Shown here one piece after another: positions 34,694-41,717 of a DNA stretch of 57,850 bases. The stretch lies in contig NZ_ANOH01000065.1 in NCBI RefSeq assembly GCF_000346505.1, forward strand, positions 1-57,850. The letters run 5' to 3'. The translations under genes were made by a program, and so were the position numbers. The notes beneath the pieces were generated by a model. The model saw nothing but the letters and a program-made list of their open reading frames with translations. It was not told the origin of the DNA and searched no databases. Each line of letters opens with the position of its first letter. Position 1 is the stretch's first letter. Source of the DNA: Aporhodopirellula sallentina SM41 (GTDB taxonomy: Bacteria > Planctomycetota > Planctomycetia > Pirellulales > Pirellulaceae).

Positions 34694-36100
34694 CTAGAAC
34701 TGAAAGTACACGAACGGGCGGAAACCACGGGGCGCGTACAACAACAAACTCCAAATCAAGATTGCAGTGGCCACTGAGCTGTACCACGCGCCGGGCGGCA
34801 AACGCATGCAACGGCGAAAACGCGTTGTCCAAACAACATGATCAAACGCCATGATCGCGATCATCAACAACGTCAGTGGAGGCAACCAAAGAATGCGAAT
34901 CATTTCCCCCGATGCCGCGTCTTGCCATGGCATCCATAACTTTTGATAGACATGCGCCGCGGTCGTCCAATCCGGGCTGCGAAACAACACCCAGCCCATC
35001 AACACCACTGTCATCACAAACAACCAACGCAGCAGAGTTGGCAGGCCCGAAAGGAATCGCCATTGTCTCTCGGCCACGAGAGCCATCCCGTGCCAGATTC
35101 CCCACAACACATACGTCACCGCCGCGCCATGCCATAGCCCGCCAAGTGTCATCGTGATCATTAGATTCCGCTGTGTAGCCAGCGACGAAACGCGTGAACC
35201 TCCCAGCGGGATGTAGAGATAATCACGCAGCCATTTCGAAAGCGTGATGTGCCACCTCCGCCAGAAATCCGACATCGACGTTGCGAGATAGGGATGTCGA
35301 AAGTTGACCGGGAAGCGATAGCCGAGCATCTTGGCGATTCCGATCGCCATGTCGCTGTATCCGGAAAAGTCGTAGTAGATCTGACCAGCATACGCGACCA
35401 CAGCGATCCACACGGTCAGGCTGCTATAAAGATCCGGTCCCGCAAAAACCACGTCGACCGTTTCGGCCAACCGGTCCGCGATCAAAATCTTCTTCACCGC
35501 ACCGCGCAAGAACTGCTGGAAACCTCCGTACATTCGTCGCCGCCGAAACCCGGGGACCTCGACAAGCTGCGGCAGCAAATTCGCCGCACGAACAATCGGC
35601 CCGGCAACCAACTGAGGAAAGAACGCCACGTAGAGCGCAAAGTCGAGAAGACTCGGCGAAGGACGCAGACGACCGCGATAGACGTCGATCGTGTAGCTCA
35701 GCGTTTGAAACGTGAAGAACGAAATGCCAACCGGCAGGATCACGTTCAACGTTCCCGCATGACCACCGAGAGCTTCGACGAGCGGACGTGCGGTGTCGAG
35801 GAAGAAGTTGCAGTATTTGAAGAACCCCAACATGCCAAGGTTCACGATCAAACTGACGAGCAACCAAGCTCTTCGCCGGAGAGACGAAGAGCACGAGTGC
35901 ATCCGGCGTGCGACGTAGAAATCAACGAGAGTTGAAATCAACAGCAAGCCACAAAAACGGTAGTCCCAGTAGGCATAGAAGTAGTAGCTCGCCGCCAGTA
36001 GAAAACCGTTGCGGATTCGACGATCGTTCGCCCCCGCCGTCCAAGCCACCGCGAGGACGACGCATAAGAAGATGAAGAATTCAACTTGAGCAAAATTCAA
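34694..36100 (-). CDS. MBOAT family membrane O-acyltransferase (AlgI-like)
   Basis: The 468-residue integral membrane protein matches the AlgI/DltB type of MBOAT enzymes, which move acyl groups across the membrane onto extracellular polymers. It begins with the family N-terminus FAQVEFFIFLCVVLAVAW, contains FPVGISFFTFQTLSYTIDVYRG-like sequence (VGISFFTFQTLSYTIDVYRG), FFPQLVAGPIVRA, YYDFSGYSDMAIGIAKMLGY, FWRRWHITLSKWLRDYLY, and the catalytic histidine region GGLWHGAAVTYVLWGIWHGM. AlgI acetylates alginate with a periplasmic partner such as AlgJ or AlgX. No such partner gene is seen here; instead a secreted Cys-repeat protein ends only 18 bases upstream. The polymer substrate is unknown. Confidence 0.9.
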   Translation of the reverse strand: MNFAQVEFFIFLCVVLAVAWTAGANDRRIRNGFLLAASYYFYAYWDYRFCGLLLISTLVDFYVARRMHSCSSSLRRRAWLLVSLIVNLGMLGFFKYCNFFLDTARPLVEALGGHAGTLNVILPVGISFFTFQTLSYTIDVYRGRLRPSPSLLDFALYVAFFPQLVAGPIVRAANLLPQLVEVPGFRRRRMYGGFQQFLRGAVKKILIADRLAETVDVVFAGPDLYSSLTVWIAVVAYAGQIYYDFSGYSDMAIGIAKMLGYRFPVNFRHPYLATSMSDFWRRWHITLSKWLRDYLYIPLGGSRVSSLATQRNLMITMTLGGLWHGAAVTYVLWGIWHGMALVAERQWRFLSGLPTLLRWLFVMTVVLMGWVLFRSPDWTTAAHVYQKLWMPWQDAASGEMIRILWLPPLTLLMIAIMAFDHVVWTTRFRRCMRLPPGAWYSSVATAILIWSLLLYAPRGFRPFVYFQF

Positions 36101-36118: not shown

Positions 36119-37033
36119 CTATTCGCGGAAGTAGTCCGCGTACTCGTCGACGTCTTGCTGTGACTGCTCACGCTGTTGCGATCGGTCCGCCTCACCTTGG
36201 GCGAATGTGGCCTGCAGAATACCACGCTGCCCGCGTGCCATGTGGCTGGCCGAATCGTCTTCGAAGGGATTGTTCAGCTCATCAAACGTACGGCCCGGAC
36301 GGTCCAGATCCAAATCGTTCGAACGCGTCGGTAGTGGGAGCGTTGGCGGCTCCGGAACCGTCCGCCGAATCGTCGTTCGTGGGACGGCCTGCGTCGGAAC
36401 ACCCCGCGTCGATGATTCGACGTGCGGTACCGGTTGAATCGACTCCTGAGCCGGCGAGATCAAGATCGGCTCTTGCGATCCATAGCTCTCCGTTGCGTAG
36501 ATCATCGAGTGCGAACAACTCGAACACTGGCATTCTTTCTTGCTACCTCGCGGAAGGCTGCAGCGATGCGAGACCATCTTTTCAATGCCGCCCGCGACGG
36601 AGTCGAACACACCGAAGAGCCTACCGGCTTTCTGCCATTTCGCAGACGCCAACAACCCTTTTTCAGGCCCGAGCATCTCGCCACACCCCGATGCCTCCAT
36701 CCCGCACGAGGGCTCGCACCCGCAGGCTGGCTCACATCCGCAAGCGGGTTCCAAACCACAGGAAGGCTCCAGGCCGCATGACGGTTCACAACCACACGCG
36801 GGCTCGCAACCACAAACCGGTTCACTGCAGGTGCAGGCCGACTCCACTCCACATGCCGGTTCGGCTCCGCAAAACGGTTCGGCACCGCAAGCGGGCTCGG
36901 CACCACAGACGGGTTCGGCCCCACACGCAGGCTCTCCCCAAAATCCTTGGCCGTTGGTTTGGGTTGGCCCAGCCGCAATGACGATGCAGGCGGCAACGAT
37001 TGTCGCGAGGTGCGGAAGGCTCTTGGAATTCAT
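36119..37033 (-). CDS. Secreted Cys-rich six-residue repeat protein
   Basis: From the chosen start the protein has 304 residues. A signal peptide covers about the first 30 (MNSKSLPHLATIVAACIVIA). About 13 tandem units of six residues follow, of the form Cys-Gly-X-Glu-Pro-X, for example CGAEPVCGAEPACGAEP, then CGCEP and CGLEP variants. A short conserved-looking segment comes next (LASAKWQKAGRLFGVFDSV, then HRCSLPRGSKKECQCSSCSH), and finally a polar, proline-rich tail. The function is unknown; disulfide cross-linking in the cell envelope or metal binding are possibilities. The frame is open to 37066 and other ATGs at 37066 and 37051 are possible. It is followed 18 bases later by the MBOAT gene. 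Confidence 0.72.
   Translation of the reverse strand: MNSKSLPHLATIVAACIVIAAGPTQTNGQGFWGEPACGAEPVCGAEPACGAEPFCGAEPACGVESACTCSEPVCGCEPACGCEPSCGLEPSCGLEPACGCEPACGCEPSCGMEASGCGEMLGPEKGLLASAKWQKAGRLFGVFDSVAGGIEKMVSHRCSLPRGSKKECQCSSCSHSMIYATESYGSQEPILISPAQESIQPVPHVESSTRGVPTQAVPRTTIRRTVPEPPTLPLPTRSNDLDLDRPGRTFDELNNPFEDDSASHMARGQRGILQATFAQGEADRSQQREQSQQDVDEYADYFRE
36690..36930 (-). repeat. Coding minisatellite, 18-base unit
   Basis: The DNA that encodes the Cys-Gly-X-Glu-Pro-X repeats is a run of roughly 13 imperfect 18-base units. Units differ mainly at the third and sixth codons, which suggests expansion by unequal exchange or slippage. Confidence 0.75.
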
Positions 37034-37066
37034 TCTCGGTTTGCGTCTCATCGCGATTACCATCAT

Positions 37067-37414: not shown

Positions 37415-38866
37415 ATGACATCTTCCGCCGCCTCGTCGTCTGCTGACGCACCCGCTGCCTCGCCAGGTGCCACCCCGTTGCATGCCGCCGCCCTGCAAAA
37501 TGATCCCAGGATCGCGGAAGCAAAGCGGCTTATCGCTGAGGCGATTCAAGAACACACCGGTGGCATCAACGAGGTCGCGGCGGCCAACGAACAACTCAGC
37601 GACGCCTACCAATCGATCACCGCGGACTACATCGCCGCACGCGGAGGCCCTCCGTTGTGGCCATATTTCGCGTCGGGAGTCGGCAACGGACCGTACGTGG
37701 AGTTGGCCGACGGCAGTGTCAAAATGGACTTCATTGGCGGGATCGGCGTTCACGGATGCGGCCACTCGCACCCGGCGATCATCGATGCCGGAATTGATGC
37801 CGCGATCGAAGACACCGTGATGCAGGGGAACCTGCAACAGAACGTGCCGAGCGTGCAGATGCTCAATCGCTTACTCGCCTTGGCCAAACAAACGGGCGCC
37901 CCGCTCGAGCACGGTTTGCTGTCGACCAGCGGCGCAATGGCAAACGAAAATGCCCTGAAATTGGCCTTCCATCATTCTCAACCGGCCAACCGAATCATCG
38001 CATTCGACAACGCCTTCGCGGGACGATCGATCGCGTTGGCCGCGATCACCGATCGCCCGAGTTACCGGGACGGGATTCCGCAGGCGATCCAGGTCGACTA
38101 TGTGCCGTTTCTCGATCCGCACGCTCCCGAGAAATCAACACGGTGGGCGGTCGACGAGTTGAAACGCCTGCTCGCTCGCTACCCGAAAAAGCACGCCGCC
38201 TTCTGGGCCGAACCGATCGCGGGCGAAGGCGGCTACTATGCCGGCAGCCATGACTTTTTCGCAGCCCTTTGCGGCCCGTTACGGGACGCCGGCATCCCGA
38301 TCATCTTCGACGAGATCCAAAGTTTCTCTCGCACGAGCCAACCGTTTGCGTTCCAACATTATGGGCTGGAATCGTTTGCTGACATCGTGACCGTCGGGAA
38401 GATCACTCAGGTTTGTGCGACGCTGTATCGCAAAGAGTTTCACCCCACCGCGCCGATTCTCAGCCAAACGTTCACCGGGTCGAGTTCCTCGATCCGCACC
38501 GGTCTGGCCACCCTCGACCAACTCGAATCAAAAGGCTGCTTCGGCGAGGACGGCACCAACATGGCCAACCATCAATATTTTGCCGCCCAGCTCGCCAAAC
38601 TCGCCGCCAAACATGAGGGTTTGGTCCACGGCCCGTTCGGCGAGGGCATGATGATCGGCTTTACCCCCGGAGACGGATCGCTCGATCAGGCCAAACTGTT
38701 GATGGGCATCCTTTACGATCTCGGCCTGCTCGGATTCCTCTGTGGAGCCTCACCGGTGAGGATGCGTTTCCTTCCCCCACCGGCTATCACCACGACCGCC
38801 CACATTGATGCGGCGATCAGCTTGCTTGATCAAGGCCTGAGTCAAATGAAAGCAAAATTGGGTTAG
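37415..38866 (+). CDS. Class-III PLP-dependent aminotransferase
   Basis: The 483-residue protein has the class-III aminotransferase fold. The features seen are the early GGIGVHGCGHSHPAII motif, GLLSTSGAMANENALKLAFHH, which binds the PLP phosphate, the Asp motif IPIIFDEIQSFSRT that contacts the PLP ring nitrogen, and the Schiff-base lysine in IVTVGKITQVCA. The small domain ends with RMRFLPPPAITTTAHI. The Ala/Ser-rich N-terminal 20 residues are probably disordered. The family includes acetylornithine, ornithine, lysine and diaminobutyrate transaminases, and the amino donor cannot be told here. It lies 95 bases before the fatty-acid-synthesis-like cluster on the same strand, which hints at a role in modifying an acyl product, but that is inference. 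Confidence 0.85.
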   Translation: MTSSAASSSADAPAASPGATPLHAAALQNDPRIAEAKRLIAEAIQEHTGGINEVAAANEQLSDAYQSITADYIAARGGPPLWPYFASGVGNGPYVELADGSVKMDFIGGIGVHGCGHSHPAIIDAGIDAAIEDTVMQGNLQQNVPSVQMLNRLLALAKQTGAPLEHGLLSTSGAMANENALKLAFHHSQPANRIIAFDNAFAGRSIALAAITDRPSYRDGIPQAIQVDYVPFLDPHAPEKSTRWAVDELKRLLARYPKKHAAFWAEPIAGEGGYYAGSHDFFAALCGPLRDAGIPIIFDEIQSFSRTSQPFAFQHYGLESFADIVTVGKITQVCATLYRKEFHPTAPILSQTFTGSSSSIRTGLATLDQLESKGCFGEDGTNMANHQYFAAQLAKLAAKHEGLVHGPFGEGMMIGFTPGDGSLDQAKLLMGILYDLGLLGFLCGASPVRMRFLPPPAITTTAHIDAAISLLDQGLSQMKAKLG

Positions 38867-38961: not shown

Positions 38962-39486
38962 ATGAAATACAGTCAACTCGATCGCATTACCCATCTCGAA
39001 CCCGGCAAAAAGCTGGTTGGCGAGCGCACGTTGGCCGCGGACGAAGAGTACCTCCAAGACCATTTCCCACGCTTCCCGGTCATGCCCGGTGTGATGATGC
39101 TCGAGGCGTTGCATCAGGCTGCGGTCTGGCTGATTCGGATGTCCCCAGACTTTGACAGTGCCCTGGTTTTGGTGCGGGAGGTTCGCAACGTCAAATTCGG
39201 CGACTTCCTATCACCGGGCGAAACCCTCACGATCGAGGCAGAAATCTTCAAAACCGACGGAGCGATGACGACGGTAAAAGCCATCGCCCGCAAAGGTGAC
39301 CGCACGACGGTCGCGGCTCGGCTAATTTTAGAAAGCTGCTCTAGTGGCGACCCAGAGCATCTTGATACCGACACCGACCTTCAACGTCTCGCTCGCGAGC
39401 AATTTTTCCAACTTTACGGCGATTGCCCCCCTGTCGCTGCCCTGGTGCAGCCTGGGGAAAACACCTCGCCAACCATGACCCCCTAA
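38962..39486 (+). CDS. FabZ-like 3-hydroxyacyl-ACP dehydratase
   Basis: The 174-residue hot-dog-fold protein carries the FabZ active-site segment DHFPRFPVMPGVMMLEAL with the catalytic His34 and Glu48. It should dehydrate 3-hydroxyacyl chains on an acyl carrier protein. The C-terminal ~40 residues after LILESC are longer than in typical FabZ and polar. It is the first gene of a tight group: the acyl carrier protein gene starts 34 bases after its stop. The ATG at 38962 (MKYSQLDRITHL) is preferred over the upstream in-frame start at 38926. It may serve a dedicated acyl pathway rather than bulk fatty acid synthesis, since it is grouped with a second, altered dehydratase. Confidence 0.85.
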   Translation: MKYSQLDRITHLEPGKKLVGERTLAADEEYLQDHFPRFPVMPGVMMLEALHQAAVWLIRMSPDFDSALVLVREVRNVKFGDFLSPGETLTIEAEIFKTDGAMTTVKAIARKGDRTTVAARLILESCSSGDPEHLDTDTDLQRLAREQFFQLYGDCPPVAALVQPGENTSPTMTP

Positions 39487-39520
39487 TACTTTTTAGTTAA
39501 ACCAAGAATAGGAACGCACG

Positions 39521-39910
39521 ATGTCGCTGTCTCAAGACGAAATTTTTGAAAAGGTGCAGGCCGCACTGGTCGATGCTCTCGGAGTGGATGAAGACGAAAC
39601 CACCCGCGATGCCACCCTTGTCGGCGACCTCGGTGCCGAGTCCATCGACTTCCTCGATATCGTTTTCAAACTCGAGAAGTCATTCGACATTCAAATTCCT
39701 CGCGAAGAACTCTCCCCCGAAGACATTTTGACCAACAGCCAATACGTCCAAGACGGTGTCGTCACCTCCGACGGGATGGCTGAACTGAAGACACGCATGC
39801 CTTGGGCTGACCTGTCGAAGTTCGAAGAAAACCCACGCGTCCAAGATTTCGGCAACCTGCTCACCGTCGGTGACCTGTGCAGCTATGTCGATAGCAAGGT
39901 GAACGCTTAA
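39521..39910 (+). CDS. Long acyl carrier protein
   Basis: The 129-residue acidic protein has the acyl-carrier fold. The 4'-phosphopantetheine attachment serine is Ser41 in DLGAESIDFLDIVFKLEKSF, where the usual motif is Asp-Ser-Leu. The expected IPREEL segment follows. About 40 extra residues (SQYVQDGVVTSDGMAELK and on) separate this from the last helix LLTVGDLCSYVDS, making the protein much longer than the usual 75-80 residues. It carries acyl intermediates for the neighbouring enzymes. It stops four bases before the next gene, so translation is probably coupled. Confidence 0.9.
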   Translation: MSLSQDEIFEKVQAALVDALGVDEDETTRDATLVGDLGAESIDFLDIVFKLEKSFDIQIPREELSPEDILTNSQYVQDGVVTSDGMAELKTRMPWADLSKFEENPRVQDFGNLLTVGDLCSYVDSKVNA

Positions 39911-39914
39911 TCTT

Positions 39915-40421
39915 ATGCGTTGGTTTTGGGTTGATCGTTTCACCGAATTTGTCAGCGGCTCGCATGCGAGCGGGATCAAGAACGTCGCGCTCGACGAGGA
40001 AGTCCTCGACGGCTACAGCCTTGGGTACCCCGTCTTGCCGCCGACCCTGATCATCGAAGGCCTCGCGCAGGTGGGGGGAATCCTCGTTCACGAGCATTTC
40101 CAGTTCACCAAACGCGTGGTCCTGGCGAAGGTCGGAAAGGTGAAATATCATGCCCCCGCCAAACCCGGCGACACTCTGAACTACCATGTCCGACTCGGTC
40201 GGACACAAGGCCTCGGGGCAGTCGTCAACGGCACCAGCCACTGCAACGGCGAACTCCAGGCCGAAGTCGACCTGATGTTCGCGTTTCTCGAAGAGGGGCA
40301 TCTCGTTGATGGGCCTCTATTCAATCCCGGTGACCTCCGCGCGATGTTGCGCCTCATGAACTTTTTCCATGTGGCCAAAACCGCCGAAGGCGAACCGATT
40401 CCTTACTACAAAAATCTTTGA
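39915..40421 (+). CDS. FabZ-fold protein with His-to-Tyr change at the active site
   Basis: The 168-residue protein aligns without gaps to the FabZ active-site region of its neighbour. Where that has HFPRFPVMPG, this has YSLGYPVLPP, so the catalytic His34 is Tyr34; the acidic Glu48 is kept (LIIEGLAQVGGIL). Other hot-dog features such as FTKRVVLAKVGKVKYHAPAKPGDTL are intact. It may be a non-catalytic partner subunit, or it may act by another mechanism, for example as an acyl-binding or thioester-handling protein. It lies between the acyl carrier protein and the FabF-type gene with gaps of four and six bases. Confidence 0.82.
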   Translation: MRWFWVDRFTEFVSGSHASGIKNVALDEEVLDGYSLGYPVLPPTLIIEGLAQVGGILVHEHFQFTKRVVLAKVGKVKYHAPAKPGDTLNYHVRLGRTQGLGAVVNGTSHCNGELQAEVDLMFAFLEEGHLVDGPLFNPGDLRAMLRLMNFFHVAKTAEGEPIPYYKNL

Positions 40422-40427
40422 GCGTCC

Positions 40428-41717
40428 ATGTCGTCGCGTCGCCGAGTCGTCGTTACCGGGATCGGAATGATCAACCCCATGGGTTGGGATGTCACGACGG
40501 TCTGGTCCGGTCTGAAAGAAGGCAAAAGTGGTGTTGCCCCAACAACACTCTTTGATGCTACCGGTTTTCCCACCCGCATCAGTGCTGAAATCAAAAATTG
40601 GGATATCACCAAAGCCGTCGACGACGGTGACCAACACGTGCGCCGTGGACGTCACACTCAATTCGCGATCGCAGCGGCCACCCAAGCGATCACAGACAGT
40701 GGCGTGCTCGACGCGGTTACCGATCCGGTCCGCTTTGGCGTGTACCTCGGCAGCGGCGAAGGCAACCAGGACTTTGGCACGTTCAGCAAAATGATGACGG
40801 CGGCGTTGGCCACGGGAGACTACGATCCCAAACGGTTCATCGCCGCAGGTATCGACCTGCTCGATCCGGCCAAGGAACTCGAACAAGAACCCAACATGCC
40901 GGCGGCCCATTTGGCTTCGCGGTTCAACGCCCAAGGCCCGAACTTCAACTGCCTCACCGCCTGTGCGGCGAGCAGCCAAGCCGTCGGGGAAGCCACCGAA
41001 ATCATTCGCCGCGGTGAAGCCGACGCGATGCTCGCCGGTGGTACCCATAGCATGATCCACCCGTTCGGCGTGACAGGGTTTAACCTGCTCACCGCGCTGT
41101 CCGAGAGCAACGACGAGCCGACCAAAGCGAGCCGACCTTTTGATGCCGGCCGAAACGGCTTTGTGCTCGGGGAAGGTGCCGCCATGGTCATCCTCGAAGA
41201 ACTCGAATCCGCGAAAGCTCGGGGCGCCACGATCTACGGCGAAGTCGCTGGTTACGGCACGACCGCAGATGCCTACCGAATCACCGACATTCCACCAGAC
41301 GGACACGGCGGGATCGCGGCAATGCGGATGGCGATCGCTGACGCAGGCCTCACCCCGGCGGACATTAACTATGTCAACGCCCACGGTACGAGCACCAAGG
41401 TCAACGACCGCGTCGAGACCAAAGCATGCCGCGAAGTCTTCGGCGAACGAGCCCAACAGACTCCGGTCAGCAGCACCAAGAGCATGATGGGGCACCTGAT
41501 CGCTGCGGCAGGCGTTACCGAAATGATCGTCTGCCTGATGGCCCTTCGTGACGGTGTCCTTCCGCCAACAATCAACTACGAAACTCCCGATCCGGATTGC
41601 GATCTGGACTATGTCCCCAACGAAGCTCGAGAAGCGGACCTGAAGAACGTCCTCAACAACAGCTTCGGCTTTGGCGGCCAAAACGTCACCCTGTGCCTCA
41701 GTCGCTTTAACGACTAG
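40428..41717 (+). CDS. fabF: FabF-type beta-ketoacyl-ACP synthase
   Basis: The 429-residue condensing enzyme extends acyl chains by decarboxylative condensation with malonyl-ACP. The catalytic triad is complete: Cys179 in NCLTACAASSQA, a His in VNAHGTSTKVND, and the Lys/His segment STKSMMGHLIAAAG. The N-terminus RRRVVVTGIGMINPMG and the C-terminal NNSFGFGGQNVTLCL are typical. It could be a KAS II for general fatty acid synthesis or the condensing enzyme of a special acyl pathway; clustering with a long carrier protein and two dehydratase-fold proteins supports the latter. No ketoreductase, enoyl reductase or malonyl transferase is in the group, so these would be shared with the main system. 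Confidence 0.9.
   Translation: MSSRRRVVVTGIGMINPMGWDVTTVWSGLKEGKSGVAPTTLFDATGFPTRISAEIKNWDITKAVDDGDQHVRRGRHTQFAIAAATQAITDSGVLDAVTDPVRFGVYLGSGEGNQDFGTFSKMMTAALATGDYDPKRFIAAGIDLLDPAKELEQEPNMPAAHLASRFNAQGPNFNCLTACAASSQAVGEATEIIRRGEADAMLAGGTHSMIHPFGVTGFNLLTALSESNDEPTKASRPFDAGRNGFVLGEGAAMVILEELESAKARGATIYGEVAGYGTTADAYRITDIPPDGHGGIAAMRMAIADAGLTPADINYVNAHGTSTKVNDRVETKACREVFGERAQQTPVSSTKSMMGHLIAAAGVTEMIVCLMALRDGVLPPTINYETPDPDCDLDYVPNEAREADLKNVLNNSFGFGGQNVTLCLSRFND

Follow-up and report, generated by a model that had tools for sequence, protein, structure and literature searches.

Here we report a compact four-gene cluster for acyl chain synthesis in the planctomycete Aporhodopirellula sallentina SM41 (Pirellulales: Pirellulaceae), found at positions 38,962 to 41,717 of a stretch of 57,850 nucleotides (contig NZ_ANOH01000065.1, positions 1 to 57,850; hereafter the window). 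The cluster encodes a FabZ-like dehydratase (DH1), a long acyl carrier protein (ACP), a second dehydratase-fold protein with an altered active site (DH2) and a FabF-type ketoacyl synthase (KS), and is preceded by an aminotransferase gene; the five open reading frames lie on the forward strand and are separated by gaps of 95, 34, 4 and 6 bases (Table 1). The four genes are a near-universal feature of the class Planctomycetia and not an accessory cluster, and it is quite likely that they belong to a second, class-wide core system with paired subunits that operates beside housekeeping fatty acid synthesis (FAS). Where needed, genomes, contigs, loci and protein families are designated by our own numbers (G, C, L and f), and publications are cited by PMC accession for the parts of their text that were available.

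The Pfam domain scores of all five genes exceed the curated cut-offs. The long ACP combines the ACP fold with an insert of about 45 residues ahead of the last helix, as judged from the sequence and a modelled fold. The catalytic Cys, His, Lys and His of the KS are invariant across 19 aligned rows. Neither a ketoreductase nor an enoyl reductase is encoded within the window's copy of the cluster.

Table 1. Genes of the acyl-synthesis cluster and neighbouring genes in the window.
Feature	Position	Strand	Characteristics
DH1, FabZ-like 3-hydroxyacyl-ACP dehydratase, 174 amino acids	38962..39486	+	FabA-like domain 62 bits; catalytic His34 and Glu48 kept
Long acyl carrier protein, 129 amino acids	39521..39910	+	PP-binding 37.4 bits; phosphopantetheine Ser41 at 39641-39643
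DH2, FabZ-fold partner, 168 amino acids	39915..40421	+	FabA-like 42.9 bits; Tyr34 for catalytic His, Pro for Gly, Glu48 kept
KS, FabF-type synthase, 429 amino acids	40428..41717	+	ketoacyl-synt 153.7 and Ketoacyl-synt_C 136.2 bits; Cys179, His319, Lys351, His356 intact
Class-III aminotransferase	37415..38866	+	Aminotran_3 156.8 bits; neighbour, judged outside the system
MBOAT-type acyltransferase gene	34694-36100	-	Pfam 123.8 bits; beyond the aminotransferase

The arrangement recurs far outside the window. A search of 30 genomes of the order (the window's own and 29 relatives) yielded a DH2 match in 29; the remaining relative (G029) matched neither DH2 nor the FabA family as a whole. The order DH1-ACP-DH2-KS is kept in 27 of the 28 loci from relatives, the 28th (L069) beginning inside the cluster at a contig end, and is therefore beyond chance. 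Among 80 named loci, 56 show exactly the four-gene order, six more include a FabG gene, two more a second KS and one the aminotransferase, and the other 15 are without one or more of the genes (contig end, gene not adjacent, or too divergent for simple profiles). DH1, ACP and DH2 stand together in 45 of 46 phylum-wide loci, with a linked KS in 36. Of 148 class genomes with a completeness of at least 90%, 147 encode the long ACP, mostly as a single copy; in the one exception, G026, a contig ends at the DH2 gene. Across the phylum, 50 of 294 genomes (the window's included) scored 141-232 bits for this protein, and the rest at most 67.5 bits. The listed genomes of the anammox family gave short-ACP matches only, and hydrazine synthase was detected in 9 of the 11 tested. 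A preliminary description of the window had seen in the cluster a pathway for a special lipid; its dedicated nature stands, but the accessory character implied does not, since the cluster is nearly universal and mostly single-copy in the class.

Five loci from metagenome-assembled genomes titled 'Candidatus Kuenenia stuttgartiensis' (L230, L233, L238, L240, L242) carry a long ACP that is 65-67% identical to that of the window. The title of at least L240, which appears to correspond to G025, a genome placed in the window's order, looks wrong.

The genome also contains another set of fatty acid synthesis genes. An acyltransferase-domain gene (fabD), a short-chain reductase gene (fabG), acpP and fabF lie in a row on contig C263, and a further fabZ, encoding the third FabA-family protein of the genome, is located on contig C274. 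Because this other acp/fabF/fabZ set exists, with fabD and fabG linked to acpP-fabF, the cluster in the window is not the housekeeping set; the earlier proposal of a dedicated acyl system apart from bulk FAS is borne out by precisely the search for a second fab set that had been suggested as a check. A family search found three FabA-type genes in this genome versus four in each of 12 other genomes of the genus, so that one such gene may be absent from the assembly. Contig C141 (L055:8646-12011) carries a separate FabF-type KS and a short ACP frame of 104 amino acids that adjoin a flavin oxidoreductase (Pfam Amino_oxidase, 46.5 bits), a grouping that faintly resembles the ACP-KS-desaturase arrangement of anammox bacteria. 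Large frames of the polyketide synthase (PKS) type with KS and ACP domains are present on contigs C274 and C134.

The two dehydratases were compared in an alignment of 131 DH1 and 140 DH2 rows, in which identical sequences were counted once and matches below 90 bits were dropped. DH1 keeps the His and the Gly in all 130 readable rows, and the Glu in 123 rows, with Gln in seven. DH2 keeps the Glu in all 140 rows, the His in 80 (replaced by Tyr in 56 and by other residues in 4 of the 60 rows that have lost it) and the Gly in only 12. Parsimony on the DH2 tree gave two changes of the His state; a loss occurring many times was considered and rejected, as the tree requires just these two. In the window's genus, DH2 with Tyr had ratios of nonsynonymous to synonymous substitution rates (dN/dS) of 0.02-0.06 in four comparisons, which are rough values (dS was mostly above 1, and one aminotransferase pair yielded no dS); these low ratios place the Tyr-type DH2 under purifying selection, so that it is not decaying. 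Since FabZ-type active sites combine a His from one subunit with an acid from the other, a DH1:DH2 heterodimer would hold one live site. DH1 and DH2 share with paired dehydratases of the ApeI:ApeP and HadAB-like kinds the combination of two homologous subunits, one with a degraded active site, in which complementary residues are kept; ApeI:ApeP and mycobacterial HadAB are thus precedents for the proposed pair.

The missing steps are in part accounted for by relatives. A gene for a FabG-type short-chain reductase stands between DH1 and ACP in 8 of the 46 phylum-wide loci, in the six named loci mentioned above and in Planctopirus limnophila; the preliminary description was right that this copy lacks ketoreductase and enoyl reductase, but a ketoreductase does lie inside the cluster in some relatives. 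A second KS-type gene adjoins the KS in six of the 46 loci. Five of these genes (L155-L158, L165) have lost the catalytic Cys and encode the signature LWLLKYLPN (hereafter KSbeta), and the sixth, of family f27, has the signature LWLLKHLPN and an intact active site. The KSbeta-like gene of f27 (L160:6074-8679; L262, L264, L265, L270, L273), which keeps Cys-His-Lys-His, may represent an intermediate stage on the way from an active KS to a chain-length partner. Two unlinked KSbetas are encoded in the window's genome, on contigs C319 (Cys replaced by Glu) and C278 (Cys replaced by Asp). In P. limnophila (G381:C1 3333195-3336619, L386), one KSbeta is found just downstream of the housekeeping acpP-fabF, with one small predicted gene between.

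The occurrence of KSbeta was surveyed in 75 genomes (74 with a DH2 or long-ACP match, and G029). The best match was read in 74 of them (G201 was left out) and was a Cys-less KS in 69, the other five all belonging to family f27. Of the 20 top matches read from 50 control genomes, 19 keep the Cys; the exception, G063, belongs to the same genus as carriers. With the KSbeta model, 74 of the 75 survey genomes scored at least 392 bits and no control except G063 exceeded 369 bits, which shows only that the controls lack both genes, since KS scores lie in the same range (406 bits for the window's own KS); as KSbeta and KS cannot be told apart by bit score alone, the distinction was made on their active sites. 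In a FastTree phylogeny of 93 sequences, whose root is uncertain, the KSbetas form a clade of 41 sequences (support 1.0) and the KS proteins a clade of 28 (support 0.982), both apart from FabF and from the anammox pair. Cys-less KS proteins occur in anammox bacteria too, and absence of the Cys alone is therefore not diagnostic of the system. The system shares with enzymes composed of a KS and a chain-length factor (KS-CLF) a KS with intact Cys-His-Lys-His and a homologous Cys-less partner, adjacent or co-occurring.

A transposon study of P. limnophila reports five FabF-type paralogues as a group in which every member is essential, and almost all lipid A genes (lpxABCDKL) are likewise essential (PMC10632474). 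The orthologues of the cluster in this species are located at about 4,039,640-4,043,820 of the chromosome (L385:5645-9822). The P. limnophila genome (G381) contains five stand-alone KS genes, namely FabF, the orthologue of the window's KS, two KSbetas and a divergent Cys-type KS, and four further KS matches in three long PKS-sized frames. Because the published count of essential paralogues matches that of the stand-alone genes, the simplest inference is that the KS and both KSbetas of the system are essential, and the second elongation system is probably essential as a whole.

The neighbourhood of the cluster is variable. Within the genus, 5 of 13 genomes (the window's, G003, G006, G008, G009) have the aminotransferase, which the preliminary description had linked to the pathway, next to the cluster. 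It is adjacent in 0 of the 16 loci that represent other genera in the order and in 1 of the 80 named loci, that of Rhodopirellula rubra; in three of the eight genus genomes without it (G004, G005, G010), the upstream sequence was visible for about 0.5 kb only. A 27% match in L073, located 1.5 kb ahead of DH1 and on the opposite strand, is unrelated in kind. On these counts the aminotransferase was rejected as a pathway member and is incidental to the system. Neighbours were scanned as families present in at least 3 of the 46 loci, together with the window's genes at 30-49 kb. With the second KS and the FabG-type gene set aside, each family is confined to 6 of the 46 loci or fewer, and those found in at least three are of an ordinary kind (ABC transporter, GlnE, sigma factor, response regulator, thioredoxin, shikimate enzyme, UvrA, SerRS, ComEC, transporters, DUF families, one MBOAT acyltransferase and one without Pfam match). 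The MBOAT gene is the sole acyltransferase among the recurring neighbours; it was found in three loci of the genus, the window included, where it lies upstream of the cluster and on the opposite strand. No acyltransferase of the lpxXL type occurs among the recurring families scanned, and the MBOAT gene, which in the window lies beyond the aminotransferase, is a member of another family. Next to the MBOAT gene (36119-37066, reverse strand), the window encodes a protein rich in repeats that contains many EP-x-CG units and has no match in Pfam.

We propose that the system is a variant of the type II FAS and KS-CLF architectures, which as such is real and conserved. Growing chains would ride on the dedicated long ACP. 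The KS would carry out condensation, probably as a heterodimer with a Cys-less KSbeta encoded elsewhere (C319 and/or C278), which would set the chain length as in KS-CLF enzymes. The keto group would be reduced by a FabG-type reductase, in-cluster in some relatives and presumably supplied from outside here. In the dehydratase heterodimer, the complementary conservation suggests that the His would come from DH1 and the Glu from DH2, and enoyl reduction would be borrowed from housekeeping FAS. The product would be a 3-hydroxyacyl-ACP of about C18-C20 for LpxA/LpxD; LpxA scored over its cut-off in the window's genome. A KS, a FabG, dehydratases and an own ACP, ending at the hydroxy stage, would fit the synthesis of long 3-hydroxy acids. 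In 1988, Kerger reportedly described planctomycete lipid A with long beta-hydroxy acids in a uniquely high proportion, and the lipid A reading, if true, explains this observation. The hydroxy acids of P. limnophila lipopolysaccharide (LPS) are given as 3-OH 14:0 (74.1%), 20:0 (22.5%) and 18:0 (3.4%) (PMC3035269). We put the probability of the whole explanation, a class-wide and probably essential second type II elongation system with paired subunits and a lipid A product, at roughly 0.55. Taken by itself, the assignment of long 3-hydroxy acids of lipid A as the product is tentative, and more tentative still is the fully specified version, in which Planctomycetia possess a near-universal essential second synthase with its own long ACP, and with synthase and dehydratase each divided between a catalytic subunit and one that is partly degenerate, that makes the long 3-hydroxy chains of lipid A.

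Several points weigh against this explanation. The 3-hydroxy acid that prevails in the LPS of P. limnophila, C14, could come from housekeeping FAS, and the lipid data cover few species. The tie from genes to lipid A is drawn by analogy, and no lpx genes were recognised beside the cluster among the recurring neighbour families of the 46 loci. The KSbetas are unlinked in the window's genome, so that their partnership with the KS is indirectly suggested, and in loci from beyond the order the KS, too, is frequently not linked to the other genes (it is missing from 10 of 46 loci, one being cut by a contig end). The published essential five were equated by us with the five stand-alone KS genes of G381. 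G063 has KS-like and KSbeta-like genes (L349, L350), with no long-ACP match and no DH gene near either KS, and G029 has a KSbeta yet no FabA-family match; both patterns may reflect loss, divergence or assembly gaps.

Other products are conceivable. The KS-KSbeta architecture suits chain-length control, as would be expected if the system were devoted to a long-chain product other than lipid A (alcohols, diols or a different very-long-chain lipid); however, near-universality in the class and the inferred essentiality fit an envelope-essential product better, and no alcohol-forming reductase was found among the recurring neighbours scanned, so we consider this alternative unlikely, if worth bearing in mind. 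A branch for unsaturated fatty acids, with the altered DH2 as an isomerase and the KS working like FabB, would account for two dehydratase-fold proteins and an extra FabF-type KS and would be essential, but DH2 has lost both His and Gly in the window's lineage. The acid 18:1 omega-9c points to a desaturase and not to the FabA/FabB route, and to our knowledge a dedicated ACP and a Cys-less KSbeta are not part of the FabA/FabB pathway; both count against such a branch. This acid has been reported (PMC3035269), and the branch is improbable.

A score of the KS close to the FabF equivalog cut-off (487.3 bits, just under 493.75) might indicate a simple duplicate of housekeeping FAS without a special product, but the separate KS clade, the distinct long ACP kept across the class and the complete other set in the genome make this very improbable. 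Least probable is a polyene or pigment pathway. The likeness to aryl polyene synthesis drawn in the preliminary description extends to the paired dehydratases and the KS/KSbeta pair and ends there: no aryl-starter or other polyene-specific genes were found among the window's genes at 30-49 kb or the recurring neighbour families, and near-universality and probable essentiality are ill-suited to a pigment.

No description of the four-gene cluster was found in the literature searched, most subscription journals being outside our reach. In its available text, a paper on ornithine lipids (PMC12493201) does not mention acyl carrier protein, gene cluster, dehydratase or ketoacyl, and that of a catalogue of type II PKS names Planctomycetes once, in a list of phyla (PMC10132072). 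The planctomycete envelope is unusual, and no enzyme system for the long beta-hydroxy acids of lipid A was found proposed in the literature searched. With a candidate that is conserved, compact and probably essential, the source of these acids becomes testable in P. limnophila, for which genome-wide transposon genetics exist. Moreover, the KSbeta-like f27 with intact residues (L160) and DH2 proteins with and without the catalytic His offer a natural series toward obligate synthase and dehydratase pairs.

Parts of the system resemble proteins and clusters described before. Active-site residues of two non-canonical FabF paralogues of R. baltica, RB3714 and RB4527, were tabulated in 2009 and grouped with anammox FabFs (PMC2649909); those of RB3714 match the KSbeta on C278 (Asp for Cys) and those of RB4527 the KSbeta on C319 (Glu for Cys), and the available text of that report does not tie either to a four-gene cluster. 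The anammox candidate cluster for ladderanes, kuste3603-3606, consists of consecutive genes for an ACP, a FabZ, a FabF and a further FabF that is non-canonical and Cys-less (PMC2649909, PMC4790861), a set similar to ours and from the same phylum, and the best PDB sequence match of DH1 is the Scalindua amxFabZ (7qv0). It differs from ours in that both of its KS proteins belong to neither the KS nor the KSbeta clade, and in its short ACP; a ladderane origin was therefore rejected, on the basis of the KS tree and the short ACPs of anammox bacteria. Nor were radical-SAM or phytoene-desaturase-like genes, as expected beside a ladderane cluster, present among the window's genes at 30-49 kb or the recurring neighbour families. 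Aryl polyene synthesis employs ApeO:ApeC and ApeI:ApeP heterodimers (PMC8358021), the latter being among the PDB matches (6qsr). Both systems have a KS with a KS-like chain-length partner and paired dehydratases, the pairing being a predicted one in ours, and they differ in that ours has no polyene-specific genes among the scanned neighbours and is nearly universal in a class. The window's long ACP scored 43.8 bits against PRK06508, which we take to be the AcpXL family, below the cut-off of 83. In rhizobia, the cluster acpXL-fabZXL-fabF1XL-fabF2XL-lpxXL for very-long-chain fatty acids serves lipid A, and mutants in four of its genes were unobtainable in strain ORS278 (PMC5613085). It differs from ours in having one dehydratase instead of two and an in-cluster lpxXL acyltransferase. 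However, it too has a dedicated ACP, a dehydratase of the FabZ-like kind and a pair of FabF-type synthases that exist alongside ordinary FAS. In this it is similar to the system reported here and can be regarded, by analogy, as a functional precedent for the lipid A reading.

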